DNA from: Desulfobacca sp.
GTDB lineage: Bacteria > Desulfobacterota > Desulfobaccia > Desulfobaccales > Desulfobaccaceae
Length of the DNA: 34,508 nucleotides
Direction of reading: 5' to 3'
NCBI GenBank assembly: GCA_028695935.1
Contig: JAQVHY010000018.1
Coordinates: 1 to 34,508 of the forward strand
How positions within the stretch are numbered: the stretch's first letter is position 1; every line of letters starts with the position of its first letter. Below the pieces are notes generated by a model. That model did no database searches, was not told where the DNA came from, and saw only the letters and a program-made list of their open reading frames with translations. This document shows, piece after piece, positions 9,981-34,508 of the stretch. The translations under genes were made by a program, and so were the position numbers.

Positions 9981-10417
9981 AACAGATTTTTTATCTCCAA
10001 AGCAATTTAATTATCGGATCCGAAAAGCGCCCCGTACGGTTACTTATTTTTTACCACGACAACGAACCTATCACATTTCCACAAACTGGGGGTTAGCTAA
10101 CAGCCTAGCGGTCTCTACCTTGAGCGCCAATTTTAGAAAAAATAACCATAGCTCATATTGGCGGCATATAATAATTGTTGTTGTCATGACAATTTTAGTT
10201 TGAGCAAAAAATAATTGACTAAATAACTTAAATATGCAAAAAAAAGTTTGTCTATTAAAGTAAGATTATTATTCCTCTTCACTATTTCTGGCCATTTTGC
10301 TTTAGAAGATAAGGGGTTTCAAACGGAGAATAATTCGACTGGAACAAAGGGGCTATTTATCGGCAATTGAAGGACGCGCAGCTTGATTGCTCAAAAGCCT
10401 ATTTAAAAGGAGAACTT

Positions 10418-14655: not shown

Positions 14656-15936
14656 TCAGTAGCGCGGTTCAAAATACAATCTCTTCCCCTGTAGTTCCTG
14701 TTGCTGACGGGCCGAGGCAATCTCCGCTTCACTCCAGGGTTCGACAATCAGCGACTCGGAAACCAGTTCCCATAAGTACTTGACCTCGATATCGAGATGA
14801 TATTCCTTGATCAGGCTCTTCATGATCTGGTCCCGACAGTTATGGCAGGGAGTGACTACCAGTTTAGCACCGGCTTCCCGGATCTGCTCGGCCTTTATCC
14901 GACCGTAATAGATGCGTTCTTTATCATAGGGCATGGCCCAGGCCCCGCCGCCGGCGCCGCAGCAGAACTGCTCAACCCGATTGGGATACATCTCCACCCA
15001 GTGTTCCACACATTGGGAGAGGATGTCGCGCGGCTCCTCAAAATAGCCCTGGCCAAAGGCTCGCAGCGATTTGCGGCCATAATTGCACGGATCATGGTAG
15101 GTGGCCAGTTCCGGGTGTCGGGATTTATCTACCCGAATACGGCCGGTATCAAAATAATGCTTGAGCACGTCAAAGATGCTCCAGATCCGGAAGTGCTGAC
15201 TTTCCTCTTTAAACCATGTGGCGAGACCTAACCTGGTCGCGTAGTAGGCGTGGCCTCATTCCGGCAAGAGCAGATTGGGGATTTTGAGCCGCTGCATGTT
15301 GGCGACAATCCGTCCCACCAATTCCCGCATGGATTCATCATCGCCGGAGAACAGCGCCCAATTGACCCCCTCCCAGTGCACCGCGGGCACCGTCCAGCTT
15401 TCTTTGGCGGCATAAAAGATCTTCCACCAAAACTTCAGGTCATCAGGCTCGGCAAAGGGTTCCTTGGAATTGATGGTCACCAGGAAATTGGCCCCTGCCT
15501 GGTCAATCGGCACATAAAATCCGGGAAAGCCCTCGTCTTCCAGTTCATAACCCAAGTCGTTGAGCAGAAAGAGGAAGTCTTCCTGGGGAATTCCCAGGTT
15601 ATTGCCGCGCTCCAGGTCCATAATCACACCCTTATGAATCGGGCCGGGCACCTTATCCCGGTTTCTGAGGCCGCGGGCGGTGCGTAAAATCTTTAGTAAC
15701 GGCACATTCATGGGACAGGCGGACTCGCAGCGCCCGCACAAAGTGCAGATCCAGGGGAAACGCGAGTCGATCAATTCCTGATCCATTCCATAGGCGAGCA
15801 TCCGGACGGCCTGGCGGGGGTCCAGACCATCGATGCCGGAGACCGGACAGCGGGAGGCACAGGTGCTACAGGTGTAGCAAGCATGGGGGATGCTCAGGAC
15901 GTCGGGAAGTTGTCGGGCCAGATTGATATCGGCCAT
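14656..15936 (-). CDS. Selenocysteine-containing HdrCB-type (CCG-domain) iron-sulfur subunit
   Basis: Read as one 426-residue protein with selenocysteine at residue 227, encoded by the in-frame TGA at 15256-15258. The N-terminal HdrC-like part has two 4Fe-4S motifs (Cys20/23/26/30 and 64/67/70/74). A middle domain follows (FWWKIFYAAKESW). The C-terminal HdrB/HdrD-like cysteine-rich domain has LPE-U-GHAYYATRLG, HDPC (284), FCCGAG (325-326) and CHNC (364, 367). The intact paralogue at 27531-28796 aligns throughout and has Cys in the UGA position. The frame past the TGA has no other stop until 14656, and a hairpin follows at 15221-15240. The start ATG at 15936 has GAGGAG six bases upstream; an ATG at 15954 overlaps the preceding stop as ATGA. 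Likely role: the disulfide- or thiol-active, or electron-relay, subunit of the Qmo/Hdr-like complex encoded just upstream. A nonsense mutation is the alternative. Confidence 0.85.
15221..15240 (-). promoter_or_regulatory. Candidate bacterial SECIS hairpin
   Basis: Beginning 16 nt after the UGA, the mRNA reads GCGACC-AGGUUA-GGUCUCGC. This folds into a 6-bp stem (GCGACC with GG..UCGC) with a two-base bulge on the 3' side, capped by the hexaloop AGGUUA. The loop begins about 22 nt after the UGA. Size, position and GGU-containing loop resemble the E. coli fdhF SECIS (loop AGGUCU). Bacterial SECIS elements lie in the coding region directly after the UGA and bind SelB. Confidence 0.65.
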
Positions 15937-15950
15937 AGTGTCTCCTCTGC

Positions 15951-18062
15951 TCAAGCGGTTTTCTGAAAGCGAAGGGCCTGGCGCACGGGACTCTCCTTGA
16001 TTTCCAGCAGCTTGGCTTCAAATTCCTGGGCCAGACGGGTAAATTCCTGGCTCATTCCCGGAGCCAAGCCGCGGTAAATCAGACGTTCCGGTTCCAGTCC
16101 GGCCTCACCCAAACATTCCTGCCACCATGCCACCCGCTCCCAGGCCCGAGGGCTGCCCTGGAAGGATTTGCAACTCCCCGGATGGCAGGCCAGCACCATT
16201 ACTCCATCAGCGCCGGCTTTAAACGCGGTCATGACATAGTCCAGGTCCACCTTCCCGGCGCAAGGGACCTCAATCAGTTCCAGCCCCAGGGGTACCGGCA
16301 ATTTCCGATAGGCGGCCAGCCGAGCTGCTTCCCTAGCCGAATTCCGGCAGCCCAAGGCGACGATCAGGGGGTGGTAAGCTGCCGAGACTGGGGTCGCAAA
16401 AGAAGCTAATGATCTAAGTTCAGCCTGGAATTGTTGATCGTGATAGCGGTACAGCTGAATTGCCGCCATAGGACATTCCACGGCACAAAGGCCGCAAACT
16501 TTACAGGCCAGATCGGAGAACACCGGCCGGCGGTGGACCACCGAGATAGCCCGGTGGGGACAGAGACGGTAACAGGTCAGGCAAATGGCGCACTTTTTTC
16601 GGTCTAATCTAATCCGGTCCAAGGCCGCGGGGATATGACCCGCCCCAAGTAGCCTGTATAGATAGAGGGCAGCCTCCCGGACCTCCTGGAAGCTTTCCGT
16701 CAGGCTGCTAGGCCCACGGGCCGGACCGACCGCCAGCACCCCGGTGCGGTTGGTGTAAATCGGCAGGTTATAGACGTGATCACCTTGAAAAAAACCCTGA
16801 CTGTCGGCTAGAATTCCCAGAGTTTTTTCCAGCTCCGGGGCCTCGGGCGGCGGTCGCAGGGCTTCTTCCAGGACAATCAATTGGGGCTGCACTACTAATT
16901 CCTGGTTCATGACCTCGTCGAAAAAGCGAACCGTCAGGGCCTCATCGGTCATGGCGATAACCGGCTGACTGCCGGTGACCTTAACGAAGACCACCCCGGC
17001 CTGCCGGGCCTGCTGGGAAAGCGCCTCCAGACCCTCCTCCGCCACCTTGAAGTGGTCGAGCACCACCAGGACCCGCCGTCCGTGGTTTTCCACCAATTCC
17101 AGGGCGGCCCGAAAGGCGCGGCGCTGCGACACCGGGGAGGAATTATGGGTAAATCCCAGCAGAAAAAGCACCGGGGCCGCGTCTACCGCGGTCAGCGTCG
17201 GCAATGGCGCTGAGTTATTTTCAAAGTGCAATTGGGCTTCCAGATCGGCCAGTGACCTGACCCGCTCCGCCGGCCTCAGACCCCAGGCCGCCCAATCAAC
17301 GGTCAGCTCGGGTTCCAGGGCCAGGATTACGCCGCCCACCTGATATTCTTGTTGGCCGCCGGTGGCATCTGCGACAAGCGCCCGGTACTGTCCGGCAACG
17401 CCGTCAAATTCGACGATCTGACTGGCAAACCGGATTTCAATGCCGGGATGTTGAAGCACCGCCGATAGCAACTGATCTAAGGCCTTGGCGGTTTCCCTGG
17501 TATAGCCGCGGGCGTCACGTTTATCTCCCAGTTCGGAGTGAGAAGTGACCAGCAGCACTTTGAGGCCCCAAGACGAAAGTTCGGCAGCCGCGTGAAGCGC
17601 GCTCCAGCCCTGCCCGAGTACCAATACCGTCTGGGAGACTATAACTTCCTGAAGCTGGAGGATAGTTTTATGAACGAGTCGGGCAATCGCCCGGCGCACC
17701 GCGACCTCGGCCTTCTGGTTGGTCCACTCCCGGTCCTGATCAGCCTCGAACACCATCTCCTGCCAGTCCACCAGTTCGGTCGCCTCCAGATTGAGGCCCG
17801 CCTGCGCCAGCCGTGCCGCCCAGGTGGGGGCCACAGGGGTAAGGTGGCCGCTAGCCAGCAACACGCCATCTAAGTTATATTCATCCCGGTGTCTTTTGAT
17901 TTGAGCCAGGCCCGCGGCGGTGTAAATCTGCTCTACTTCCTGAACTAGCTGGACCTGGGAGTGAGCCGCCGCTACCTTATGCATATGCTCGACGTCCACT
18001 TGGGTCTTCTGGAGGTGGCCGTCGCGATCCCAGAAAAAGCCGATCCGAACCCCGGTACTCAT
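15951..18062 (-). CDS. QmoB/HdrA-like flavin iron-sulfur protein with MvhD-type C-terminus
   Basis: A 703-residue cytoplasmic protein with QmoB architecture. An HdrA-like N-terminal half holds a nucleotide-binding motif (VLVLGQGWSALHAAAEL). Two 4Fe-4S motifs lie around 495-540 (CAICLTCYRLCP and CKVCGLCAVECP). A C-terminal MvhD/FrhD-like domain (about 560-690) has PCAGKVDLDYV and ACHPGSCKSFQGS. The dinucleotide motif is atypical (G-Q-G-W-S-A instead of G-G-G-I-A-G), and the N-terminal CHCG-type cysteines of HdrA are missing (IGFFWDRDG), so its own FAD site may be weak or changed. It starts with an ATGA overlap on the QmoA-like gene and overlaps the Sec-CCG gene's first ATG in the same way, so the three form a translationally coupled module. 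In sulfate reducers QmoABC feeds electrons to APS reductase; here the neighbours point to the methylene-THF reductase complex instead. Confidence 0.85.
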   Translation of the reverse strand: MSTGVRIGFFWDRDGHLQKTQVDVEHMHKVAAAHSQVQLVQEVEQIYTAAGLAQIKRHRDEYNLDGVLLASGHLTPVAPTWAARLAQAGLNLEATELVDWQEMVFEADQDREWTNQKAEVAVRRAIARLVHKTILQLQEVIVSQTVLVLGQGWSALHAAAELSSWGLKVLLVTSHSELGDKRDARGYTRETAKALDQLLSAVLQHPGIEIRFASQIVEFDGVAGQYRALVADATGGQQEYQVGGVILALEPELTVDWAAWGLRPAERVRSLADLEAQLHFENNSAPLPTLTAVDAAPVLFLLGFTHNSSPVSQRRAFRAALELVENHGRRVLVVLDHFKVAEEGLEALSQQARQAGVVFVKVTGSQPVIAMTDEALTVRFFDEVMNQELVVQPQLIVLEEALRPPPEAPELEKTLGILADSQGFFQGDHVYNLPIYTNRTGVLAVGPARGPSSLTESFQEVREAALYLYRLLGAGHIPAALDRIRLDRKKCAICLTCYRLCPHRAISVVHRRPVFSDLACKVCGLCAVECPMAAIQLYRYHDQQFQAELRSLASFATPVSAAYHPLIVALGCRNSAREAARLAAYRKLPVPLGLELIEVPCAGKVDLDYVMTAFKAGADGVMVLACHPGSCKSFQGSPRAWERVAWWQECLGEAGLEPERLIYRGLAPGMSQEFTRLAQEFEAKLLEIKESPVRQALRFQKTA

Positions 18063-19303
18063 GGCCAGACTCCTAAATGGCGGGCCATCCGGGCCGCGGC
18101 CTGAGCTGCCTGGGTAATGGATTCGGCAATGTCCATAGGGCCGGTTGCGGTGCCGGCGACCACCACTCCCGGGGAATCATCTTCCTCCTCAGGGACGTAG
18201 AACCCGTGCTCATTCAGTTTCAGACCCAGCATCTGACCCAAAGCCTGATTCTCCGGTCGGGGCATAATTCCCACCGACAGCACTACCAGGTCGAAGTTTT
18301 CACTGATCACCGTCCGCTGCTCCAGATCAAAATACCGCACCGCAATCTGGTCCTGGGACGCGGGAAAATAATCGCCGGGCATAGAGCGAATTAACCTGAT
18401 CCTACCGTTCACTTCCCGCCTGAACCGCTCAAAATCTTTGCCGAAGTTCTGGAGATCCATATAAAAAACCGCGACCCTGGTCTCTGGTCGGGCATGACTG
18501 AGCTTCAGTCCTAGGCGCAAGGCATAGCCGCAACACACCCGGGAGCAGAAGTTATGCTTAAGACTAAGGTCGCGGCTGCCCACACACTGCACAAAGGCGA
18601 TATCCTGGGGCGGTGGGCCGTCCGCGGGGCGCAGCACCCCGCCCTGCTCGCGCAGGCGGCGCTCCAGCTCCAGGGCGGTGATCATATTAGGATAGGCATC
18701 AAAATTGAGGTGGGCCTTTTCCCGCGGATCAAAAGGCACATACCCGGTAGCCAGCACGATGCCGTCCACCCCTAAGGTTAATTCCGCACCCTGCCGATCC
18801 AGATCAATAGCCCCTTCCGGGCAGGCCCCTTGACACCGGCGGGCCTGGTCCAAACTGTCGCATAGACACTGTTCGGGATGGATAACGTAAAATGGATGAT
18901 TCTGGGAAGATGGGCCGTGCCGGATAGCGCCCTCGGCCACGCCTAAACATTTCTCGTAACAGATGCCGCAATTGGTGCATTGGTCTGGGTCGATATAACG
19001 CGGCGCCTGATGCAGGGTGACCTGGAACCTGCCATGCTGACGGGCCACGGAGCTAAGCCGGGTCTGCAAGCTGAGGTCGATGCCCGGAGCGCGGCTAACT
19101 TCCCGCAGCCGCTGCTCGACCAGACAGTTGTTGCACTTGAGACAGCGGTCGGTAGCCTTGCAGGCCAACTGGGCGGCATGACCACCTAAAAACGGGCCCT
19201 GGTCAATGAGGAGCACATCAACCTTCAGTTTGGAAAGTTCCCAGGCCGTAGTCATCCCGGCGATGCCGCCGCCTACTACCAATACCTTTTTGGTCTTACC
19301 CAT
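18059..19303 (-). CDS. QmoA/HdrA-like FAD iron-sulfur protein
   Basis: A 414-residue HdrA-family flavoprotein of QmoA length. The N-terminal FAD motif is VLVVGGGIAGMTTAWEL, followed by a cysteine cluster (ATDRCLKCNNC). Two ferredoxin-like motifs follow: CTNCGICYEKC near 110, and a second cysteine-rich stretch, CLCDSLDQARRCQGACP, near 145-165. The HdrA-type segment IAFVQCVGSRD and FCSRVCCGYALRLGLK appears in the middle, and a second FAD-contact motif (GVVVAGTATGPMDIAESI) at the end. It probably forms the flavin core of a heteromer with the QmoB-like and Sec-CCG proteins, with which it is coupled by a 4-bp ATGA overlap. It follows metF after 39 bp, with GGAT at the expected distance. QmoA itself is the nearest named relative, but the gene context is not that of an aprBA-qmo locus, so I give no symbol. 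Confidence 0.85.
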   Translation of the reverse strand: MGKTKKVLVVGGGIAGMTTAWELSKLKVDVLLIDQGPFLGGHAAQLACKATDRCLKCNNCLVEQRLREVSRAPGIDLSLQTRLSSVARQHGRFQVTLHQAPRYIDPDQCTNCGICYEKCLGVAEGAIRHGPSSQNHPFYVIHPEQCLCDSLDQARRCQGACPEGAIDLDRQGAELTLGVDGIVLATGYVPFDPREKAHLNFDAYPNMITALELERRLREQGGVLRPADGPPPQDIAFVQCVGSRDLSLKHNFCSRVCCGYALRLGLKLSHARPETRVAVFYMDLQNFGKDFERFRREVNGRIRLIRSMPGDYFPASQDQIAVRYFDLEQRTVISENFDLVVLSVGIMPRPENQALGQMLGLKLNEHGFYVPEEEDDSPGVVVAGTATGPMDIAESITQAAQAAARMARHLGVWP

Positions 19304-19342
19304 TTAAGCATCCAAGTAAATGCTGCCCCCCAGGCCGTATTT

Positions 19343-20224
19343 TTACAATTCCACCGCCGCGATAACCTCCGGGATGATCTCCACATGATGATCTGCCCTT
19401 AGGTGGACGCCGTGAGCCAACCCTTTATCTTTGATAGCTCGGATCATTTCGATGGCCCGCTGTTTCCCGCGGGTTAGGGCTTGAGTCTCATCCAGTCCCT
19501 GGAATTCGTTCATGATCTCTGGGGGAATGAGGTTGCCCGGAGGATTATTAGTGGCCTGGCACTCTACATCGCCCTTCCCGAGCAGCCGCACTCCGACCAG
19601 CAATTTGACCTCTTGTTGCCTAATATGAGCCACAAAGGCCTCCAGCTTGTTAAGGTCGTAACCGTCCAGGGTAATAAGAAAATCCGCGCCGGCCCGGATT
19701 TTTTTCAGACACTTGATCATCTGCGGTTGGAGGGGCTGGGCCGCAGGGTTGGCCACTGCCCCCAAAAAAAACCTGGGCGCGCCGTTCAGATCATTGCCGC
19801 CCTGGACTTGGCCGTTTTCCAGCGACCGGGCCATTGTCAGCGCCTGGACCGAATCCAGATCAAACACCGGCATGGCCTCCGGGATGTTGCCAAAGCTCAG
19901 GTAATCGCCGCTGACTAATAAAATGTTCTCAATTCCCAAGGCATAGGCCCCCAGCAGCCCGGCAGCCAGGGCCAGACGGTTGCGGTCCCGGCAGTTAAAG
20001 GTACAAATAACTTCGCCCCCTTGTTCACGGGCCAGGACGCTGGCGGCCAGCGCCCCCATGGCCAGATTAGCCCCGCGATTGTCAGAGATCGCCAAGGCGT
20101 CGACGCAGTCTTTTAAGATGTTAACTTGGCGTCGCAAAGATTCAGGGTTCACGCCTGGAGGGGGTGCAAGTCCCACCGTGATCACAAATTTGCCGGACTC
20201 TAAAGCGTTCTGGAACTTACTCAT
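19343..20224 (-). CDS. metF: MetF-like methylene-tetrahydrofolate reductase, flavoprotein subunit
   Basis: A 293-residue TIM-barrel protein of the MetF family, expected to interconvert 5,10-methylene- and 5-methyl-tetrahydrofolate, the methyl-branch step of the Wood-Ljungdahl pathway. Start ATG at 20224, overlapping the metV stop by 8 bp, gives the family N-terminus MSKFQNALESGKFVIT; the frame is open 42 codons further upstream inside metV. Family blocks visible: TFNCRDRNRLAL, GIENILLVSGDYLSFG (Asp107, matching E. coli Asp120), PVFDLDSVQAL and RFFLGAVANPAAQPLQPQ. Odd: the catalytic Glu (E. coli Glu28) is Gly18 in VGLAPPPG, and the substrate Gln (E. coli Gln183 in ITQFFFD) is Leu186 in ITLDGYD. 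It pairs with MetV. Either the active site is rebuilt or the substrate is different. Confidence 0.85.
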   Translation of the reverse strand: MSKFQNALESGKFVITVGLAPPPGVNPESLRRQVNILKDCVDALAISDNRGANLAMGALAASVLAREQGGEVICTFNCRDRNRLALAAGLLGAYALGIENILLVSGDYLSFGNIPEAMPVFDLDSVQALTMARSLENGQVQGGNDLNGAPRFFLGAVANPAAQPLQPQMIKCLKKIRAGADFLITLDGYDLNKLEAFVAHIRQQEVKLLVGVRLLGKGDVECQATNNPPGNLIPPEIMNEFQGLDETQALTRGKQRAIEMIRAIKDKGLAHGVHLRADHHVEIIPEVIAAVEL

Positions 20225-20897
20225 GGGCCGAGTATCTTCTTTTATAGGCCTGGTGAATCTGAGTCGCCGGGTGCGCGGCCCGGCGGTGATCCCGGGGAGG
20301 GACAATATCTGCGATCTGAGCCAGGCGGCCGGAGGCTTCCAGCCGTTCATAAATCATCGTCCAGGCGCAGGGCTTATCCGGGTTAACTTCGCATTTACCC
20401 GCGCGGGTCCCGGCGCAGGGTCCGTTGAGCAGGCTTTTGGGGCACATGGTGATCGGGCACACCGCGCCGGTCAGCGCCAAGTAGCAGGAGCCGCACAGGC
20501 GGCAACGCTCGGTCCAGTAGCCGGGCTCTTCATTGGCGCCGATGAAGGTGGTGTCCACTCCCGGCAGCACTACCTTGTCCGGGTAGCGGTCAGACAGGAA
20601 CTGGATTCCGACCCCGCAGGCCAGGGACACCAAAACATCATAATCTTTTACCAGATGCCTGATTTCGTAAAGAAACTCGCGGTCACATTGGCGCTCCACG
20701 GTGGCTTCGCCCATAAACAAGGGTTGGCCGGCGAGTTGGGAGGCGATTTCCAACTGCGAAGCCAACAGCTTGACCTCCCGCTCGCCACCGGCCAGGCAGA
20801 CGGCGACACAGGTGCCGCAGCCGACGATCAGCACCCGCTGATAGCCTTTAAGGCTGTCCTTGATCTCGGCCAGGGGCTTGCGCTGGGCAATAATCAC
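20217..20897 (-). CDS. metV: MetV-like methylene-THF reductase partner subunit
   Basis: A 226-residue cysteine-rich protein of the MTHFR C-terminal (MetV) family, found beside MetF in acetogens and other users of the Wood-Ljungdahl pathway. It links MetF to its electron donor through zinc or iron-sulfur sites. It has VLIVGCGTCVAVCLAGG near the N-terminus, VSLACGVGIQ in the middle, and the signature CRLCGSCYLALTGAVCP, then KSLLNGPCAGTRAGKCEV and KPCAWTMIYERL. GTG at 20897 is chosen because GGAGAA lies 8 bases upstream and the family starts at VIIAQRKPLAEI. A GTG at 20957 would overlap mvhD by 35 bp without a ribosome-binding site. It lies between mvhD and metF, the arrangement expected for a MetFV-HdrABC-MvhD complex. 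Confidence 0.9.
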   Translation of the reverse strand: MIIAQRKPLAEIKDSLKGYQRVLIVGCGTCVAVCLAGGEREVKLLASQLEIASQLAGQPLFMGEATVERQCDREFLYEIRHLVKDYDVLVSLACGVGIQFLSDRYPDKVVLPGVDTTFIGANEEPGYWTERCRLCGSCYLALTGAVCPITMCPKSLLNGPCAGTRAGKCEVNPDKPCAWTMIYERLEASGRLAQIADIVPPRDHRRAAHPATQIHQAYKRRYSAHE

Positions 20898-20922
20898 GTT
20901 TTCTTCTCCATACTTTGACGCC

Positions 20923-21408
20923 TCAGGCCACTGCCCGTCTCTGATTTTCAATTCCACCGGCGGCCTGGTGTAAACGCAGGGGATTGGGCCCCAGTTTTTT
21001 AACTCGGGCTACCATTTCATTGACCCGCGCCACCCACTGGGGCGCATCCGAGGCCCCGATGTGGTACATTTCCAGTCGTTCGCCCGCAATACCGGCTTCG
21101 GCCAGCAAGGCTTTGGTATATTCCACCCGCTCGCGGGCGCGCAGATTACCCTCCCGGAAATGGCAGTCCCCCGCTTCGCAACCGCCCACCAGGATGGCAT
21201 CGACCCCGGTTTGCATGGTTTTGAGCAAATGGATGGTGTCCACCTTGCCGGTGCAGGGTAGCTTGACGATCCTCACTTCGGGCGGATATTGCAGCCGCAG
21301 GGAGCCAGCCATATCCGCCGCGGTATAGGTGCAGTAGGTGCATACCAGTGCCACAATTTTAGGCTGCCAATCGTTGTTGTTAGTAATGGCTGGGTTCATT
21401 TCCCTCAC
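20923..21408 (-). CDS. mvhD: MvhD/FrhD-family electron-transfer subunit
   Basis: A 161-residue protein of the methyl-viologen-reducing hydrogenase delta family, a 2Fe-2S carrier that passes electrons to HdrA. It has VCTYCTYTAADMAG near residue 24, KLPCTGKVDTIHLL, and the diagnostic GGCEAGDCHFREGN. The first GTG overlaps the hdrA stop as GTGA, which suggests translational coupling. An ATG nine bases further in (21399) has GAGGG three bases upstream and is an alternative. No hydrogenase genes lie nearby, so it probably links the large HdrA to MetV/MetF rather than to hydrogen. Confidence 0.92.
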   Translation of the reverse strand: MREMNPAITNNNDWQPKIVALVCTYCTYTAADMAGSLRLQYPPEVRIVKLPCTGKVDTIHLLKTMQTGVDAILVGGCEAGDCHFREGNLRARERVEYTKALLAEAGIAGERLEMYHIGASDAPQWVARVNEMVARVKKLGPNPLRLHQAAGGIENQRRAVA

Positions 21409-24400
21409 GCTACTTGGCGTTGTAAGTCATCGATCAGTTGGTCTAAAGGGCAGACCACCATGGTTTCCGCCAGGATCTGATCGTCTTTTAAATGCTGCAC
21501 TTGAATGAGCCGCCGCGGGCAGGCGCTGGCGCAGTTGCCGCAACCCTGACATTCCGCCGGATCAATCTCGATAAAGCCGTCGGCCGCGACTTTGGGCACT
21601 CCAAAGGGGCAGGTCCGGGCGCAAGTCATACAGACTACACACTTCTCCCGGTCCACGGTGGCGACCTGACCGCCGACAAACATCTTCTCCTGGGCCAGGA
21701 TAGTAGCCGCCCGACTGGCCGCGCCCTGGGCCTGGGCAATGGACTCCTCCAGAAACTTGGGACCGTGCCCCAAACCGCATAGAAAATAGCCCGAATTGGT
21801 GAAATCCAGGGGCCGGAGCTTGACGTGGGCCTCCAGCAAAAAGCCATCCTGGTCCAAGGGGAGTTTCAGGGTGCCGGCCAGGGCTTTGCTTTCCGCCCGC
21901 GGCCGCAGCGCGGCGCTTAAGACCACGGCGCTGACCGGAATCTCCAGTTCGGCGTGCATGTTCTGATCAAAGACATTGACCACCAAGGCCTCGCTGTCAG
22001 CTTTTACGGTTGGTTTCTGAGCCAGATCAAAACGGACAAACCGAACTCCCGCCTTCCGGGCCTGCTGGTAATAGAGTTCATTAAGGCCAAAGGTCCGGAT
22101 GTCGCGATAGAGCACATAAACCGCCGCCTGGGGATTCAGCTCCTTAAACTTAAGGGCATTGGTGATCGCCTGGGTACAACAGATACGGCTACAATAAGGA
22201 TGCTCCGGCTCACGTGATCCCACACACTGGATCATTACCAGGCTATCAATTTGGTTGAGACGCGCGTCGCTAGCTCCCAAAAAGCCGTGGAATTCCCGTT
22301 GGGTCCAGACCTGCGGGTGCTGGCCGTAGAGATACTCGCTAGGGCGATATTCGCTGGCCCCGGTGGCCACGATGGTGGCGCCGTGCTCCACCTCCTGTAT
22401 TTGCCCGTCAGCATTGATCCGGCTGACAAATTTTCCCAGATGTCCCCTGGTGTCGATAACTTCGGCACCGGTTAATAAGCTGATTTTAGGATGGTTTTTT
22501 ACCTGACCGATCAGCGTCTGGACAAAATTCTGGACATCTTCACCCTGAGCGTTGAAATAGAGGTGCAGGGCTTCACCTCCCAGCGTGTCGGTTTTCTCCA
22601 CCAGCGTGGTTCCGAAACCTTGATCGGCCAGGGCCAGAGCCGCACTCAGACCGGCCACCCCACCCCCGATCACCAATCCCTTCTGGGTCACGGTAACCGC
22701 GTGTTCCGGCAAGGGTTCCAGCCGCGCCGCCCGCGAGACTGACATACGCACCAGGTCTTTGGCTTTTTCGGTGGCGGCCTCCGGCTCCTGTTGATGCACC
22801 CAGGAACACTGATCCCGGATGTTGGCCATATCAAACAGGTATTTGTTGAGTCCGGCCTGACGCAGATTATCCTGGAACAGCGGTTCATGGGTGCGCGGCG
22901 AGCACGAAGCCACCACCACCCGGTTAAGCTGATATTCGTCAATGATCTCGATCATTCTGGCCTGGGAGTCGGTGGAACAGGTAAACAGGTAGTCCGTGGT
23001 ATAAACCACGTGAGGTAGGGTCTGGGCGTACTCGGCCACTGCCTTGACATCGATCACCCCGGCAATGTTAATCCCACAATGGCAGACAAAGACGCCGATG
23101 CGTGGTTCCTGCCCCTGTACCGGTCGCTCCGCGGGATAGACGATCTCCCGGGCCAGGGTACCGCGGGCCGCGGCCAGCAGACGCTGGGCCTGGCACGCGG
23201 CGCTCGAGGCCTGGGCCACGGTCTCGGGTATGTCTTTAGGGGACTGGAATACGCCGCAGGTATAAATCCCTTCTCGGGAAGTGGCAATCAGATCAAACGG
23301 CCGGGGTTGGGCAAAGGCAAAGTGGTCCAACTCCAGGTTCATTTTGCGGGCGATACTGATACTGGCCGGATGGGGCTTCAGGCCCACCGATAGAATGACC
23401 AGGTCGAAGCGCTCATCCTGGAACTGGCCGGCTTCATCCAGGTAGTGAATCTCCAGATCGTGACTAATGGGGTTCTCCGCTACCCGTGAAATCATACTGC
23501 GCACGAAGCGCACCCCGTGTTCGGTCCGGGCCCGCTCATAGTAGCGGTCGAAGCCTTTGCCATGCGCTCGCAGGTCCATGAAAAAGATGGTCGGCTCGAT
23601 CCGGGGATCATGCTCTTTGGCGATGATCGCCTGTTTAATCGCATACATGCAGCACACCGAAGAACAATAGTCCTGACCGCAGGCCGCATCGCGCGAGCCG
23701 ACGCATTGAATCCAGGCCACTTTAACCGGCTCCTTACCGTCCGAGCGGCGCTGGAGATGGCCTTGTAAAGGTCCAGAAGCCGACAGCATCCGTTCAAATT
23801 CCAGGCTGGTGATGACATTGGGATAGCGGCCGTAACCATATTCTCCTTTGCGGGAGGCGTCAAAGGGCCGGAAACCCAGGGCCAGGATCACCGCCCCGAC
23901 CTCGAGATTAATGGTCTGGGGTAACATGCCATGGTCAATGGCCCCGGCCTGGCAGGCCGCCACACATTGCATACACTCCGAACAAACGCCACAATTGAGG
24001 CAGCGGGCCGCTTCGGCCTGGGCCTGCTCGATGGTATAGCCCTGGGCCACCTCATCAAAACTGTTGCCGCAGAGTTCGGCGGGCAGGACTGGCATAGCCC
24101 GCCGGGGTTGCTTTTCCTTATCCAGCGGAATTTCCGCCCAATCAGCCAGGGCCTGAGCTTCCGCACCCAGATCCCGTCCCGCGGTTAAATCCCGACCCTG
24201 TAAATACCGGTCAATTGATTCCGCGGCCTCCAGCCCTCCGGCAATGGCGCCGATTGCCACCCAGGGACCGGTATGGACATCCCCCGCGGCAAATACTCCG
24301 GACCGGGAGGTCTGATAAGTCACCGGATCCAATTCCACAGTCCCGAAACGGGTGGTTTGAATATTAGTATCGGCTACGCCGGTCAAGTCTGCGGCCTGCC

Positions 24401-25904
24401 CCACCGCCGGCAGGATCATATCGACCTCCAAAAAAAACTCCGAGCCGGTGAGGGGAACGGGGCGGCGGCGACCCGAAGCATCAGGCGGCCCCAGTTCCAT
24501 GCGGATACAGGTCAGACCCGTCACCTTACCATCCTGGACCTCTACTTTTTCAGGCGCGGCTAAGTAGTGGATTTTGATGCCCTCGCATAGGGCCGCTTCA
24601 ATCTCCTCGGCCAGGGCCGGCATCTCCTCCCGGGAGCGGCGATAAACGATCGTGATTCTTTCCGCGCCCAGACGCCGGGCGGCGCGGGCCACATCAAAGG
24701 CGACATTGCCGCCGCCGATAATGGCTAATTTTTTGCCCAGCTCAGGTTTCTGTCCCAGGTTTAGTTGGCGCAGGAAATCAACCCCCTGGATCACCCCGGC
24801 CGCCTCCTCTCCCGGTATGCCCAGAGCGCGGCCCTGATGGCAACCTAAACCTAGAAAGACCGCCTGGTAGCCCTGATCAAAGAGGTCGTCCAGGCTGAAG
24901 TCGCGGCCCAGGGCGGTATTGGTTTTGATTTCTACCCCGAAGCGCATGATATTATCGATTTCCGCATCCAATATATGTTTGGGCAGGCGATAGTCGGGAA
25001 TCCCGACCCGCAGCATGCCGCCGGTAACCGGCAAGGCCTCGAAAATGGTCACCGGATAGCCCCGCCGAGCCAAATGATAGGCGCACGACAGCCCGGCCGG
25101 ACCGGAGCCGATGATCGCTACCCGTTCCGGTCGAGTGGTGATCTCCGGCCAAGTGATGCTGGCTAGTTCCACCTGATCGGCGGCAAAGCGCTTCAGGTTA
25201 CAGATGGCCATCGGCTCGTCTATCTCCTGGCGGCGGCAACGATATTCACAGGGATGGGGACAGATGCGACCTAACACCCCCGGCAAGGGCAGTCGTTCCA
25301 TGATCAGCCTGACGGCCTCGGCGTACTTGCCCGCCTTAATCAACTGGACATAGCCCTGGACATTGATCCTGGCCGGGCAGGCCGCCACGCAGGGAGGCCG
25401 GTCCAATTTTTCAATGGCATAAGCGGAGGGAATGGCCTGGGGGAAGTGTCGGTACGCGGCCCGGCGCGGTCCCAGTCCCTCATCAAAGGGGGCAAGTAGG
25501 GTGACCGGACAGACCTTGGCACATTCACCACAAGCGGTGCATTTATCTACATCTATAAAACGCGGCTTTAGCCCCACCTTCAGGGTAAAATAACCCGGCT
25601 CGCCCTCCAGCGACTGGACCAGCGACCCGGTAATGATATCAATGTTGGGATTGGCCGCTACCTCGATGAGCTTGGGCGAAATCATACAGGTAGAACAGTC
25701 GTTGGTCGGAAAGGTCTTGTCCAATTGGGCCATAACCCCGCCGATGGTGGTGTTGTGCTCCACCAGATAGACCTTGAATCCGCTCCGGGCCAGATCCAGG
25801 GCCGACTGCATCCCGGCAATACCGCCGCCCACTACGGCCACTGCGCCGATTTTATTAGGGGCGTTGACTGACTGGCGGGAATTAAGATTTTCTGTATTAA
25901 TCAT
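21405..25904 (-). CDS. hdrA: Giant HdrA: HdrA split by NfnB/GltD module plus second HdrA copy
   Basis: A 1499-residue flavin iron-sulfur protein, about twice to three times normal HdrA length. Order seen: HdrA FAD motif VVGGGIAGMQSALDLARSG (22-42) with HdrA cysteines NDCSTCMISPK (68-78) and a 4Fe-4S motif CTACGECAKVCP (122-132). An inserted GltD/NfnB-like NAD(P)H oxidoreductase (about 169-570) has cysteines 172-235, GSGPAGLSCAYHLARRG (267-282) and the NAD(P) motif IIGGGNVAFDVARAARRLG. The rest of the first HdrA (about 630-915) has CLNCGVCSECMQC and YCSSVCCMYAIK. A second HdrA (about 935-1405) has CHCGINIAGVID and VIGGGVAGLSAALALADQG. Two terminal ferredoxin motifs lie near 1415 and 1444. The protein should bind up to three flavins and so could bifurcate or confurcate electrons between NAD(P)H, ferredoxin and the MetFV/HdrBC sites. 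It is followed by mvhD with overlap. Confidence 0.9.
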   Translation of the reverse strand: MINTENLNSRQSVNAPNKIGAVAVVGGGIAGMQSALDLARSGFKVYLVEHNTTIGGVMAQLDKTFPTNDCSTCMISPKLIEVAANPNIDIITGSLVQSLEGEPGYFTLKVGLKPRFIDVDKCTACGECAKVCPVTLLAPFDEGLGPRRAAYRHFPQAIPSAYAIEKLDRPPCVAACPARINVQGYVQLIKAGKYAEAVRLIMERLPLPGVLGRICPHPCEYRCRRQEIDEPMAICNLKRFAADQVELASITWPEITTRPERVAIIGSGPAGLSCAYHLARRGYPVTIFEALPVTGGMLRVGIPDYRLPKHILDAEIDNIMRFGVEIKTNTALGRDFSLDDLFDQGYQAVFLGLGCHQGRALGIPGEEAAGVIQGVDFLRQLNLGQKPELGKKLAIIGGGNVAFDVARAARRLGAERITIVYRRSREEMPALAEEIEAALCEGIKIHYLAAPEKVEVQDGKVTGLTCIRMELGPPDASGRRRPVPLTGSEFFLEVDMILPAVGQAADLTGVADTNIQTTRFGTVELDPVTYQTSRSGVFAAGDVHTGPWVAIGAIAGGLEAAESIDRYLQGRDLTAGRDLGAEAQALADWAEIPLDKEKQPRRAMPVLPAELCGNSFDEVAQGYTIEQAQAEAARCLNCGVCSECMQCVAACQAGAIDHGMLPQTINLEVGAVILALGFRPFDASRKGEYGYGRYPNVITSLEFERMLSASGPLQGHLQRRSDGKEPVKVAWIQCVGSRDAACGQDYCSSVCCMYAIKQAIIAKEHDPRIEPTIFFMDLRAHGKGFDRYYERARTEHGVRFVRSMISRVAENPISHDLEIHYLDEAGQFQDERFDLVILSVGLKPHPASISIARKMNLELDHFAFAQPRPFDLIATSREGIYTCGVFQSPKDIPETVAQASSAACQAQRLLAAARGTLAREIVYPAERPVQGQEPRIGVFVCHCGINIAGVIDVKAVAEYAQTLPHVVYTTDYLFTCSTDSQARMIEIIDEYQLNRVVVASCSPRTHEPLFQDNLRQAGLNKYLFDMANIRDQCSWVHQQEPEAATEKAKDLVRMSVSRAARLEPLPEHAVTVTQKGLVIGGGVAGLSAALALADQGFGTTLVEKTDTLGGEALHLYFNAQGEDVQNFVQTLIGQVKNHPKISLLTGAEVIDTRGHLGKFVSRINADGQIQEVEHGATIVATGASEYRPSEYLYGQHPQVWTQREFHGFLGASDARLNQIDSLVMIQCVGSREPEHPYCSRICCTQAITNALKFKELNPQAAVYVLYRDIRTFGLNELYYQQARKAGVRFVRFDLAQKPTVKADSEALVVNVFDQNMHAELEIPVSAVVLSAALRPRAESKALAGTLKLPLDQDGFLLEAHVKLRPLDFTNSGYFLCGLGHGPKFLEESIAQAQGAASRAATILAQEKMFVGGQVATVDREKCVVCMTCARTCPFGVPKVAADGFIEIDPAECQGCGNCASACPRRLIQVQHLKDDQILAETMVVCPLDQLIDDLQRQVA

Positions 25905-25934
25905 GTTGATCTAATCAGCGTTTATCTCTCGGGT

Positions 25935-26792
25935 TCAGCAAGATATCAGCCCGACGCCGGCTAACAGGCGCGCCGGCGGGACAAAGTGCATGTGGCCCCA
26001 CTGCCGGGCTTGACTAAGGCCTAAGGCCAGCCCGATAAGTTCAGTAAAATAAAAGATCGGCAAGTAATACGAGCGTTCCAGCTCCCGTAGGATTTTATCC
26101 TGATACAGGTCCAGGTTGGCCTGGCACATCTGGCAGGAAACCACCATGCAGTTGGCCCCGGCTTCTACGGCTTTATCGTAGAGTCGGCCCACCAGTTTAA
26201 AGACGATATCGCGGCGGGCGATCAGGTGGCTGGCCCCACAGCAATCGGTTTTGTACGACCAGGGTTTTACCTCCACCCCTAATTTACTCAGAATACGGTC
26301 CATACTGGTAGGATTCTCGTGGTCGGGGGCCTCTGTGATCCCCGGCGGCCGGCTGGCCATACAACCGTAGTAACAGACGGCCTTAAGTCCGGGCAGGGGC
26401 TGGCTAACCCTACTGGCCAGGAGTTGGAGCAGTGGCTCCTGGGCCAGGAAATCAGCCAGATCGTAAATCTTAATGTCACCCTGGAAAGCATAATCATAAG
26501 ATTGGCGCTTATCTCCGGTGAGTGCTTGGGCCGCGGTCTTAAGCCGGTTAAAGCACAACGGACAGGGGACTACCAGATCCCGGCCCTCTTTTTCGGCCAG
26601 GGCCAGATTACGGCCCGCCAGGGCAATCGCCGCATGGTGGTTGAGGGCATGGGCCGCGGTAGCGCCGCAACAGTTCCAGTCTTCCAATTCGATGAGCTCC
26701 ACTCCCAGAGCTTTACACACCGCGGTTAGCGAGGCGGCGTAATCGCGGGCCGTGCCTTCCAGCGAACATCCGGGGTAGTAGGTGACTTGCAT
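25935..26792 (-). CDS. hdrB: HdrB-type CCG-domain subunit
   Basis: A 285-residue homologue of heterodisulfide reductase subunit B. It has two complete CCG cysteine-rich motifs: the first from YYPGCSLEG through DWNCCGATAAH to PCPLCFNRL, the second from CYYGCMASRP through TDCCGASHLI to SCQMCQANL. In HdrB these bind the unusual non-cubane 4Fe-4S clusters that reduce disulfides or act as an electron exit. ATG at 26792 is preferred because AGGA lies 6 bases upstream; GTG at 26804 overlaps the hdrC stop but has no such signal. It is located between hdrC and hdrA in the usual operon arrangement. Electron acceptor unknown. Confidence 0.92.
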   Translation of the reverse strand: MQVTYYPGCSLEGTARDYAASLTAVCKALGVELIELEDWNCCGATAAHALNHHAAIALAGRNLALAEKEGRDLVVPCPLCFNRLKTAAQALTGDKRQSYDYAFQGDIKIYDLADFLAQEPLLQLLASRVSQPLPGLKAVCYYGCMASRPPGITEAPDHENPTSMDRILSKLGVEVKPWSYKTDCCGASHLIARRDIVFKLVGRLYDKAVEAGANCMVVSCQMCQANLDLYQDKILRELERSYYLPIFYFTELIGLALGLSQARQWGHMHFVPPARLLAGVGLISC

Positions 26793-26800
26793 GGGCATCC

Positions 26801-27376
26801 TCACCCGGTGGAATTTGCCAGAATTTTCTTGATTGCGGCTCTGGCCCTAATGCCTTGGGGCGTGAGCGCCAGCCGCCCTTTGCGGAACAGGTGATAGGCC
26901 AATTCCAGGTCATCCTTGAGCTCCCGATCCTTGAGTTTGCGCCAGATTTCTCCGCTTTGGAACATATAGCGGGGCAACAGCCCGCCTTCAAAAACCCGGC
27001 CGCGGCGACCAATATCCTCCAGAAACACCCGATGAAAGGCATAGGTGCGGGGCTGGGGAATGTCAATCCCACTCTTTATTGCCTGTTCTTTCAGGTAATC
27101 CATGATGCCGGCCACATCCACCTCATTGGGGCAGCGGGTGGTGCAGGTTTCACAGGCAGAGCAGACCCAAATAGTGCTACAATTGAGGACGGCCTTTTGC
27201 TGTCCGATCTGCACCAGCCTAATTACCTGGTCGGGATAGAGATCCATGGCAAAGGTGACCGGACAGCCGTTAGTGCACTTTTTACATTGGTAACAGGCCG
27301 AAACCGCAATGCCGCTGTCCTGCTCGACCTGCGCCATAAACTGCACTTCGGGAATAAGCTTTGGGTTAGATAACAT
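26801..27376 (-). CDS. hdrC: HdrC-type 4Fe-4S subunit
   Basis: A 191-residue homologue of heterodisulfide reductase subunit C, carrying electrons from HdrA to HdrB through two cubane clusters. Two motifs are visible, ACYQCKKCTNGCP near the N-terminus and VCSACETCTTRCP about 45 residues later, followed by a helical C-terminal region (RTYAFHRVFLEDIGRRGRV). The ATG at 27376 has AGGG 8 bases upstream and gives the normal N-terminus; a GTG 13 codons upstream is the alternative. The stop lies 8 bp before the preferred hdrB start. A 154-bp gap containing an inverted repeat separates it from the preceding gene. Confidence 0.92.
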   Translation of the reverse strand: MLSNPKLIPEVQFMAQVEQDSGIAVSACYQCKKCTNGCPVTFAMDLYPDQVIRLVQIGQQKAVLNCSTIWVCSACETCTTRCPNEVDVAGIMDYLKEQAIKSGIDIPQPRTYAFHRVFLEDIGRRGRVFEGGLLPRYMFQSGEIWRKLKDRELKDDLELAYHLFRKGRLALTPQGIRARAAIKKILANSTG

Positions 27377-27428
27377 TATTAGCCCTGCTCTATGAACTGG
27401 TCGGCCACAAATCACTCGCTGTGTCTTG

Positions 27429-27470
27429 GTGTCTCTGTGGTGGATAAAAAAAATTTAACCACAGAGACAC
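27429..27470. repeat. Inverted repeat between the Cys-type HdrCB gene and hdrC
   Basis: GTGTCTCTGTGGT (27429-27441) and ACCACAGAGACAC (27458-27470) are perfect 13-bp inverted arms around a 16-base A-rich loop. Partial similarity extends outward (CTGTGTCTT / AGAGGCACAAAG). This type of sequence occurs as an interspersed intergenic repeat in many bacteria. In RNA it would be a stable hairpin inside the putative operon and could attenuate or stabilise the transcript. Confidence 0.7.
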
Positions 27471-27530
27471 AGAGGCACAAAGATGGTGGGTATTCTCATC
27501 TCCAGCTAACTGCCTGCCAACTTTTTAGTT

Positions 27531-28796
27531 TTAGCCCTCCAATATCAAGGCGTCGGCCACGACTTCCCAGAGATATTTGACTTCGATGTCGAGGTCATAA
27601 GCCTTCCTCAGGTTGCGCATGATCTGATCGCGGCAATTGGAGCAGCCGACCACCACCAGCTCCGCTCCGGTAGCTTTGATATCCTCCACCTTATAGCGGC
27701 CGTGTTCGGTCTTCTCGGCCTGGAAGGGGCCGGGCCAGTTGCCGGCTCCGGCACCGCAGCAATAAGCATTCATGCGATTATGGGGCATCTCCCGGAAGTT
27801 CTTCATGTCAAAGCAATAACTGAGGATTTCCCGCGCCTTATCAAAACAGTCATCCCCCCAATAGATTCTCGCCACCCGGCCATGTTTACAGGAGTCATGC
27901 CAGGTGAAGATCTGGTCGGCATGTACCGATTTATCTACCCGGATGCGCCCCTGTTGCAAAAAATTGAGCAGCACATCAAAGAAATAGACATAATCGTGGC
28001 CGGTTTCAGGGCCGAACTCGTGCTTGAAATACTGTTCAATGTTAAGCCGGGTCCCCATCGAAGCCCCGCCACAGTCGGGCAGGATCATGGTCTTGGCCTG
28101 CAAGCGCTTCATATTTTCCACTTTGCGCCGGGCAATTTCTTTGCTGGCCTCCCAGTTGCAAGTAAAAAGTCCCCAATCTACCGACTCCCAGTTGGTAGAG
28201 GAGGTGGTCCAATCGGCCTTAGCCGCGTAAAAAATCTTCCACCACCATTTTAAATCTTCGTAATCGGCAAAAACCTCTTTGGAATTTTCAAAGAAGAGGT
28301 ATTCCGCCCCGACTTTATCCAGGGGAATTTCAAAGCCGGGACATTCTTCTTCGGCCAATTCCTCGGCCAGATCCTGCATGGTTTCGACGTAGTCTTCGGT
28401 GGGAATGCCCATATTGTTGCCGGTCTGGAGGCACATCTCCACGCCCTTATGCAGCACCCCGGGAACCTGGTCGCGGGGCCGCAGGGCCTTGGCCCGATAC
28501 CAAATCTCCGTCAGATGCACCCCCATCGGGCAACCGGCCACACAGCGATAGCAGGCGGTGCAGATCCAGGGAAACCGGGCATCAATAAGTTCCTGCTCCA
28601 TGCCCAACAGCACCATGCGCAGGGCCTTGCGACAGTCCAGGTGTTCATCGCGGGTGCTTTCCATGCCGGTCAGCGGACACCCGCCGGAACAGGTGCCGCA
28701 GGTATAACAGACATTGACATGGGCGGCGGTAATCAGGTCGGCAAAACGGCTGTCCCGACGTTTTTGCGTAATGGTCATAAAATCCAAGGCTTCCAT
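27531..28796 (-). CDS. HdrCB-fusion (HdrD-like) iron-sulfur protein, cysteine form
   Basis: A 421-residue cytoplasmic fusion of HdrC- and HdrB-like parts. Two 4Fe-4S motifs are at Cys30/33/36/40 and Cys79/82/85/89. A middle domain has two WWWKIFYAAK-type aromatic blocks. The CCG-type region has LPDCGG (Cys242), HDSC (303), YCCGAG (346-347) and CSNC (385, 388). There is no membrane segment, unlike QmoC. It is paralogous over its whole length to the UGA-containing gene at the other end of the cluster, with Cys242 matching the selenocysteine. ATG at 28796 has GGAGAA 5 bases upstream. It is the first gene after the sigma-54-type promoter. It probably delivers or accepts electrons at a thiol/disulfide or protein partner; the substrate is unknown. 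Confidence 0.88.
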   Translation of the reverse strand: MEALDFMTITQKRRDSRFADLITAAHVNVCYTCGTCSGGCPLTGMESTRDEHLDCRKALRMVLLGMEQELIDARFPWICTACYRCVAGCPMGVHLTEIWYRAKALRPRDQVPGVLHKGVEMCLQTGNNMGIPTEDYVETMQDLAEELAEEECPGFEIPLDKVGAEYLFFENSKEVFADYEDLKWWWKIFYAAKADWTTSSTNWESVDWGLFTCNWEASKEIARRKVENMKRLQAKTMILPDCGGASMGTRLNIEQYFKHEFGPETGHDYVYFFDVLLNFLQQGRIRVDKSVHADQIFTWHDSCKHGRVARIYWGDDCFDKAREILSYCFDMKNFREMPHNRMNAYCCGAGAGNWPGPFQAEKTEHGRYKVEDIKATGAELVVVGCSNCRDQIMRNLRKAYDLDIEVKYLWEVVADALILEG

Positions 28797-28934: not shown

Positions 28935-28950
28935 AGCAAGGGCCGTACCA
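28935..28950 (-). promoter_or_regulatory. Candidate sigma-54 promoter of the hdr-met-qmo cluster
   Basis: On the minus strand TGGTACGGCCCTTGCT matches TGGCAC-N5-TTGCW with one change (C to T) and correct -24/-12 spacing. Transcription would start near 28923, leaving a leader of about 127 nt before the first gene. The next gene upstream on the same strand encodes an NtrC-type activator. The rest of 28797-29128 is AT-rich with no visible gene. Confidence 0.65.
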
Positions 28951-29128: not shown

Positions 29129-30508
29129 CTACCAGTTTACTCGCAGATTATATTTCTTGATCCGCTGTCCCAGGGTCTTGCGGTTGATCCCCAGGATGCG
29201 GGCCGCCTCTTGACGCTTCCCTTTGGTGCGCCGCAGAATGAACTGGATATAGCGCTTTTCCAGTTCCTCGAGGGTATGGTCTTCGTCGGAAAAGACCTGG
29301 AACTCCCCCCGGCGCTGCGAAATAAAGCTGGGCAGATGCTCCGGCAGGATAATGTCGCCATCTTCCAGGATGATGATGCGTTCAATGGTGTGCTCCAATT
29401 CCCGGACATTACCGGGCCAGGAATAGGCGCACAGCATCTTGATGGCGCGATTGGAAATGCCTTTGGTCTGGCGGTTGGTTTTCTGGCTGTATTTATTAAG
29501 GAAATGTGCAACCAGGAGCGGTATGTCCCCGGCCCGTTCCCGCAGCGGCGGCAAGTGGATGGGAATGACGCTCAGCCGATAGTACAGATCCTCCCGAAAA
29601 GAGCCGTCCTTGATGGCCTCGTTGAGATCACGATTACTGGAGGCAATGATGCGGATATCCAGTTTGGTGCGCTTCTGGCTGCCCACCTTCATGAATTCCC
29701 GTTCCTGAATCACCCTGAGCAGCTTGGCCTGGATATTTAAACTGAGATTGGTGATCTCATCAAAGAAAAAGGTCCCCTGATTGGCCAGTTCGAACAGCCC
29801 ATGTTTGGTCTGATGGGCCCCGGTAAAAGAACCTTTGACATGGCCGAACAGTTCGCTTTCGAGCAGGGTCTCTACCAGGGCCGAGCAGTCCACCGGGACG
29901 AATTCCTTATGGGCCCGGGGGCTGAGGTCGTGGATGGCGCGGGCCACCAGTTCCTTGCCGGTGCCGCTTTCGCCGGTGAGCAGCACGGTACTATCGCTGG
30001 GCGCGGCACGGCGGATTTTGGCAAACACCTTCTGCATGGCCGGGCTGTCGCCGACAATGGAGTCGATACCTTGTTCCAGGGGTTCTGCCTGGGCAGATAA
30101 ATCCGGCTGTGGTCCTTCCTTAAGGAGATTCAGGGCCTTATTCACCAGGGATTCCAATTCGTCGATCCGGAAGGGTTTCACCAGATAATCCACCGCCCCC
30201 AGTTTTATACATTCGACGGCCCCCTCGATATCGGGGTAGCCGGTGATCATAATGACCTGGGTGGCCGGATATTCCCGGCGAAGGACTTTCAGGACTGCCA
30301 TGCCATCCAGACCGGGCATCTTGATATCGAGCAGCACCACCGCGGCTGGCGCGACGGCCATCAGTTCCAGCGCCTGGCTGCCGTCGGCCGCGGTTCTGAC
30401 CTCCAGATTCTGGCTGGCTAGCACCTGGGCAATGCCGGTACGCACCACCGCTTCATCATCGACCACTAAAATCTGCGGGGCCCGGTCAAGATCAGGCATG
30501 ATCGACAT
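29129..30508 (-). CDS. NtrC-family sigma-54-dependent response regulator
   Basis: A 459-residue activator. The receiver (about 12-125) has an Asp-Asp-Glu acidic pocket, phosphoacceptor Asp61 ([10 protein letters not shown]) and Lys111. The AAA+ domain has the Walker A motif GESGTGKE near 179-186, the sigma-54 contact loop GSFTGA (226-231) and Walker [11 protein letters not shown]. The C-terminal Fis-type helix-turn-helix is [19 protein letters not shown]. It overlaps the upstream receiver-kinase gene by 17 bp and is the last gene of a three-gene signalling unit. It is transcribed toward the hdr cluster, whose candidate sigma-54 promoter lies 180 bp past its stop, so it is the obvious candidate activator. 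ATG at 30508 is listed; ATG at 30499 has AGGA better placed. Confidence 0.93.
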
Positions 30509-34392: not shown

Positions 34393-34508
34393 ATCCTGAT
34401 CCTCTTCGCCCCTGAGATAGGAAGGTATATTAATCCCTTCAGTAATCAACCACCTCTCCCGCGGTTACCGATGGTCACGGGAACGGCACTGGACCGGCTG
34501 ACAACCGG

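Follow-up and report, generated by a model that had tools for sequence, protein, structure and literature searches.

The gene cluster and its setting

The window, meaning the whole stretch of 34,508 nt analysed here, is contig C68 of a Desulfobacca sp. genome (3.17 Mb, 99% complete). Ten genes, all on the minus strand, run from position 28796 to position 14656 in the order hdrCB1, hdrC, hdrB, hdrL, mvhD, metV, metF, QmoA-like, QmoB-like and hdrCB2 (Table 1). The original prediction had described ten same-strand genes in this order, with these domains and with start/stop overlaps; all of this was confirmed, the overlaps being certain at three junctions, each of four bases (hdrC/hdrB, 26801-26804; hdrL/mvhD, 21405-21408; QmoA-like/QmoB-like, 18059-18062). 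An overlap between the QmoB-like gene and hdrCB2 exists only with TTG 15954 as the hdrCB2 start; ATG 15936, which is preceded by GAGGAGA, is likelier, and MetF probably starts at 20224 rather than 20350. Purifying selection was seen in all nine genes tested between the window and D. acetoxidans. The 115-bp gap between hdrCB1 and hdrC (27416-27530) contains an inverted repeat of the CCACAGAGACAC type, and a 1356-aa autotransporter with a C-terminal barrel (10367-14437, plus strand) is convergent to the cluster.

Table 1. Features of the cluster and its upstream region, in window coordinates.
Feature	Position	Strand	Basis
PAS histidine kinase	32044..34449	-	80-83% identity, syntenic in D. acetoxidans
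Sensor histidine kinase, N-terminal receiver-like region	30492..31991	-	84% identity, syntenic in D. acetoxidans
NtrC-type sigma54-dependent response regulator, adjoining the operon	29129..30508	-	88% identity, same place in D. acetoxidans
Sigma54-type promoter TGGTACGGCCCTTGCT, ~140 bp 5′ of hdrCB1	28935..28950	-	sole match in window; same place in D. acetoxidans
HdrCB1, HdrC-HdrB fusion, Cys form, 421 aa	27531..28796	-	HmcF 171 bits, DsrK 132 bits; 89-92% identity with D. acetoxidans
HdrC, likely start ATG 27376	26801..27415	-	HdrC/QmoC-type Fe-S models
HdrB, two complete CCG motifs	25935..26804	-	two CCG stretches; invariant Cys sets
HdrL, 1499 aa, HdrA with inserted GltD/NfnB-like NAD(P)H domain and second HdrA half	21405..25904	-	E356/K409 retained in N-half only
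MvhD	20923..21408	-	FlpD 151 bits
MetV	20217..20957	-	PF12225 123 bits
MetF, likely start 20224, catalytic Glu replaced by Gly	19343..20350	-	MTHFR 62 bits; alignment column E to G
QmoA-like flavoprotein, 414 aa	18059..19303	-	HdrA2 283 bits; clade distinct from true QmoA
QmoB-like flavoprotein, C-terminal MvhD domain, 703 aa	15951..18062	-	HdrA2 and FlpD matches; 61% to D. acetoxidans, next <=38%
HdrCB2, putative HdrC-HdrB selenoprotein (HmcF/TmcB/DsrK-like), TGA read-through	14656..15954	-	likely start ATG 15936
Putative selenocysteine codon TGA, motif E-U-G-H	15256..15258	-	in-frame TGA in 16 distinct loci; Cys in few homologues
SECIS-like hairpin, 15 nt past TGA	15221..15240	-	family-wide stability far above synonymous-codon null; absent in Cys homologues

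Utilizing a strict -24/-12 consensus, a single putative sigma54 promoter was found in the window (28950-28935), where 0.03 matches were expected. A loose pattern (TGGCN7TTGC) gave matches at chance level and missed this site, and the stricter consensus was used instead. A second histidine kinase/NtrC-type pair (1892-4850, minus strand) lies at a position unrelated to the cluster.

As predicted, no aprBA, qmoC or hydrogenase genes were found near the cluster; the true aprA and qmoC of this genome sit on contig C141. Together with dsrA (563 bits) and the Wood-Ljungdahl marker CdhC on contig C39, these mark the host, judging by gene content, as a sulfate reducer with a Wood-Ljungdahl pathway. Its relative in the same family, D. 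acetoxidans, oxidises acetate via that pathway.

An in-frame TGA in hdrCB2

The two predicted HdrCB fusions are both present, but the 3′ one, hdrCB2, is read as two ORFs (232 and 170 aa; 15954-15256 and 15168-14656) lying in one frame and split by a TGA at 15258-15256. This codon aligns with a cysteine in HdrCB1, and translation through it raises the match to HmcF to 192 bits, from 80 and 89 bits for the halves alone. Across many families, 16 distinct loci carry the TGA within an E-U-G-H motif, while cysteine at this position is confined to HdrCB1-type paralogues and two other homologues. Both tRNA-Sec and SelB are encoded in the genome. Since the fold of a single sequence is insufficient, the SECIS element was judged by a family-wide synonymous-codon test. 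A hairpin follows the TGA in each Sec locus, with a summed stability of -150.6 kcal/mol compared to -75.7 ± 9.1 kcal/mol for synonymous-codon shuffles (0 of 500 as low), and the Cys homologues tested (n = 4) had no excess of stability. The window hairpin taken alone is not significant, either in the synonymous-codon test (p = 0.19) or as a single-sequence fold. A frameshift or pseudogene at 15954-14656 was ruled out, since the halves share a frame, the TGA is kept in 16 loci and purifying selection acts strongly on the sequence 3′ of it (dN 0.069, dS 0.82, dN/dS ~0.08; dN 0.053, dS 0.93, dN/dS ~0.06 before the TGA). The TGA is therefore best explained as selenocysteine, and annotation that stops at it splits a conserved subunit into two.

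The best models for HdrCB2 are HmcF, TmcB and DsrK; since its scores (192, 169 and 149 bits) are under the curated cut-offs (750, 735 and 400 bits), it is a relative of these CCG proteins and not a member. Alignment of HdrCB with HdrB by hhalign was limited to the C-terminal CCG domain. The selenocysteine may be a cluster ligand or an active-site residue. The U-G-H motif, which HdrCB2 shares, marks a known family of Fe-S oxidoreductase-like selenoproteins (GlpC/PTHR43551; PMC13188914); the operon described for that family contains hdrA-frhD-frhG-frhA hydrogenase genes (PMC1794560), whereas here the neighbours are metVF and the QmoAB-like pair. An HdrCB-type Sec protein, HdrD4, is reported from Desulfobacterium autotrophicum (PMC2702500), and CCG proteins such as HmcF, TmcB and DsrK are predicted partners of DsrC (PMC10553843).

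The MetVF-Hdr core and its linkage to a Qmo-like pair

The adjacent, same-strand genes hdrC, hdrB, hdrA (hdrL), mvhD, metV and metF constitute an Hdr-type methylene-THF reductase (MTHFR) gene set, and by gene content the six types match the layout known from Moorella thermoacetica and Sporomusa ovata (PMC9430772), as the original prediction had proposed for Moorella. The predicted HdrA gene is present, corrected to a 1499-aa HdrA-GltD-HdrA fusion, HdrL; the Moorella HdrA has 1487 aa, and in both proteins a GltD domain interrupts the N-terminal TrxR half (PMC9430772). To this layout the window adds the QmoAB-like pair, two HdrCB fusions and a Sec subunit. In Sporomusa, pull-downs connect MetVF with HdrA, HdrB and MvhD, yet Hdr proteins fail to co-purify with MetVF, and bifurcation was not measured (PMC9430772). 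D. autotrophicum likewise has an HdrA/glutamate-synthase fusion followed by MvhD, and a Sec-containing HdrD (HdrCB) protein; in the part of PMC2702500 available, however, its HdrL adjoins MvhD, dsr or fdh genes rather than metVF and a QmoAB-like pair. Seep-SRB1g has HdrABC beside metF, and Hdr genes similarly lie near Wood-Ljungdahl genes in sulfate reducers, with no mention of a QmoAB-like or Sec-HdrCB part in the available portion of PMC10553843. No published description of MetVF joined to a QmoAB-like pair was found in a literature search that covered few subscription papers; the MetVF-Hdr half is thus already known, and its linkage to the QmoAB-like pair and Sec-HdrCB apparently undescribed.

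In its GltD domain, HdrL shares 75% identity with the genome's own HdrL paralogue (C22) but 50% with its D. acetoxidans orthologue; for the HdrA parts on either side, identity to the orthologue is 80-85%. This pattern indicates a domain swap or gene conversion. On C22 (locus L103), the genome carries a second HdrC-HdrB-HdrL-MvhD-MetV set with no adjoining metF.

The predicted Qmo-like flavin module was upheld as to its layout. As in QmoABC, flavoproteins of QmoA and QmoB size (HdrA plus MvhD) lie in tandem, but qmoC and aprBA are missing, a CCG protein replaces the membrane subunit and the K409 equivalent is Arg. In a quick, midpoint-rooted tree the 45 QmoA-like rows group together with support 100; the 16 rows of aprBA-linked QmoA group separately (support 99), and HdrA likewise falls outside the QmoA-like clade. 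Since the clade is separate from true QmoA, the name Qmo denotes layout here, not membership. A pair of this layout also works outside the aprBA-qmoC setting.

Synteny across Desulfobacterota, proposed earlier as a check, was examined in 37 phylum-sample genomes, picked from the best QmoB-like matches among 345. The module occurs with metVF in most of them, MetV adjoining it in 24 of the 37 compared to ~2% per genome expected; about a third have it without metVF. The pattern named beforehand as refuting, qmo-like genes that in relatives usually lack metVF, was therefore not seen. Because the order is conserved in many families and MetV adjacency so far exceeds expectation, the arrangement is beyond chance. 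Three states were seen. The full cluster with HdrL occurs in families f1, f2, f10 and f16 and in named Desulfarculaceae, Syntrophobacterales and Desulfomonile MAGs; within the window's family, the version seen here is confined to the window genome and D. acetoxidans, G080 being of the f2 type. MetV(F) with the QmoAB-like genes but without HdrL, in some cases with Sec-HdrCB, was found in G036, G333, L109 and L117 (the contigs of the latter two being short). A stand-alone QmoAB-like-HdrCB(Sec) trio was found in G132, G295, G254, G232, G210, G275 and the named MAG L114. In L168 and L173, an Olavius symbiont among the carriers, the order is HdrA-MvhD-HdrA-MvhD-HdrCB(Sec)-MetV-MetF, so that the Sec CCG protein adjoins MetVF with no QmoAB-like genes, and in L119, a MAG labelled Bacillota, the genes are reordered as MetV-MetF-QmoA-like-QmoB-like-HdrCB-HdrL-MvhD.

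The products most likely assemble into a single soluble complex for electron transfer, or into two that are tightly regulated together. A looser arrangement, in which a MetVF-Hdr complex shares its operon with a QmoAB-like-HdrCB(Sec) disulfide reductase that works independently, and both are regulated together because they serve acetate oxidation, would agree with the stand-alone trios and with MetVF-Hdr sets lacking QmoAB, which are common (L088, L104, L130). Since the trio stands alone in some genomes, its role may be unconnected with C1 chemistry. The genomes with MetV(F) and QmoAB-like genes but no HdrL suggest, however, that the pair associates with MetVF directly and not only with the Hdr unit, and full independence of the two units is possible but unlikely.

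MetF, flavin sites and a possible route for electrons

The catalytic glutamate of MetF (Glu28 in E. coli) is glycine in the window and in D. acetoxidans, in contrast to the Moorella/Sporomusa-type system, and is conserved in all nine other MetF proteins aligned. In E. coli MTHFR, Glu28Gln retains ~0.01% of kcat (PMC11094777). Methyl-THF oxidation by the window MetF is thus doubtful, since this residue is missing, although the host and its acetate-oxidising relative fit the setting originally proposed. No solved structural relative of MetV or MetF was found at the thresholds applied. Just beyond the regulator and kinase genes, D. acetoxidans carries a further cluster, HdrA-MvhD-HdrA-MvhD-MetV-MetF, in which MetF retains the glutamate. 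The end of the window contig overlaps by 16 bases the start of C159, which carries the same cluster, again with a normal glutamate in MetF; from this overlap and the D. acetoxidans arrangement we infer that the C159 cluster neighbours the window operon on its upstream side. MTHFR catalysis by MetF of the Desulfobacca lineage may accordingly have been lost or changed, and the step left to the upstream MetVF.

Carried further, the complex of this lineage would no longer be an MTHFR at all, its MetVF being structural or an electron relay and the neighbouring HdrA-MvhD-MetVF cluster supplying the true enzyme. The replacement in both species, with the remainder of MetF under persisting selection (dN 0.186, dS 0.98, dN/dS ~0.19), and the nearby MetVF with a normal glutamate are consistent with such a change of function. 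Nevertheless, MetF retains its barrel and the Asp that binds folate (SGD), and the glutamate loss may be compensated; we regard this reading as improbable.

Residues E356 and K409 of HdrA serve to separate bifurcating from other flavins (PMC9430772, PMC12054007). In the HdrL N-half, 23 of 24 loci have both equivalents; in the C-half the positions vary across loci and read HT in the window, whereas the Moorella HdrA C-half keeps both residues. QmoA-like proteins have the glutamate, with Arg at the lysine position in every cluster locus checked, and the QmoB-like sequence is missing the CC-motif stretch that carries the lysine. Retention in the HdrL N-half and Arg in QmoA-like point to one bifurcation site, in the HdrL N-half beside the NAD(P)H domain. 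With the lysine absent and the clade distinct from true QmoA, the QmoAB-like pair probably serves to pass electrons on, not as a further bifurcating module. The originally predicted model, in which both HdrL and the pair bifurcate and methyl-THF oxidation drives two acceptors of different potential, draws on the joining of MetVF to two flavin modules and on the genome's true QmoA and QmoB, which by eye retain E and K, but the Arg, the missing QmoB-like stretch and the MetF substitution make it very improbable. Coupling of the oxidation to two acceptors, taken by itself, is possible.

Methyl-THF oxidation is uphill only to NAD(P)H or ferredoxin and would be downhill to menaquinone or a DsrC disulfide, so the problem of an uphill oxidation, from which that model set out, depends on the acceptor. 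The potential of the oxidation is -200 mV (PMC9430772). Our best explanation, to which we give somewhat less than even confidence, is that a single operon under sigma54 control encodes a soluble complex in which a MetVF-Hdr core is joined by a QmoAB-like relay to Sec HdrCB, with one bifurcating flavin in HdrL. Gene content, synteny, the Sec codon together with its hairpin and machinery, purifying selection, the promoter sequence and the pattern of key residues are direct observations; we infer the single complex, the bifurcation, DsrC as partner and the direction of flow. The core would be the Hdr-type methylene-THF reductase set (HdrCB-HdrA/GltD-MvhD-MetVF), and the QmoAB-like pair would relay electrons between MetVF/HdrL and the DsrK/HmcF-like Sec HdrCB2, which most likely would trade them with a carrier of the thiol/disulfide type, for instance DsrC. 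The N-half flavin of HdrL, by the NAD(P)H domain, would be the sole candidate for bifurcation; electrons of the C1 step (~-200 mV) would be split there, uphill to NAD(P)+ and downhill to the disulfide side, or the reverse.

The cluster supplies concrete partners for the re-oxidation of methyl-THF in acetate-oxidising sulfate reducers. A new class of methylene-THF reductase in sulfate reducers, in which MetVF passes electrons through a non-bifurcating QmoAB-like relay to a Sec CCG protein that reduces DsrC trisulfide, is rather unlikely on present indications. Were it true, the methyl branch of acetate oxidation would feed sulfite reduction directly in the cytoplasm, bypassing the quinone pool, and NAD(P)H or ferredoxin would be formed at HdrL. 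Since the cluster is also present in the cultured acetate specialist D. acetoxidans, this re-oxidation step is accessible to experiment.
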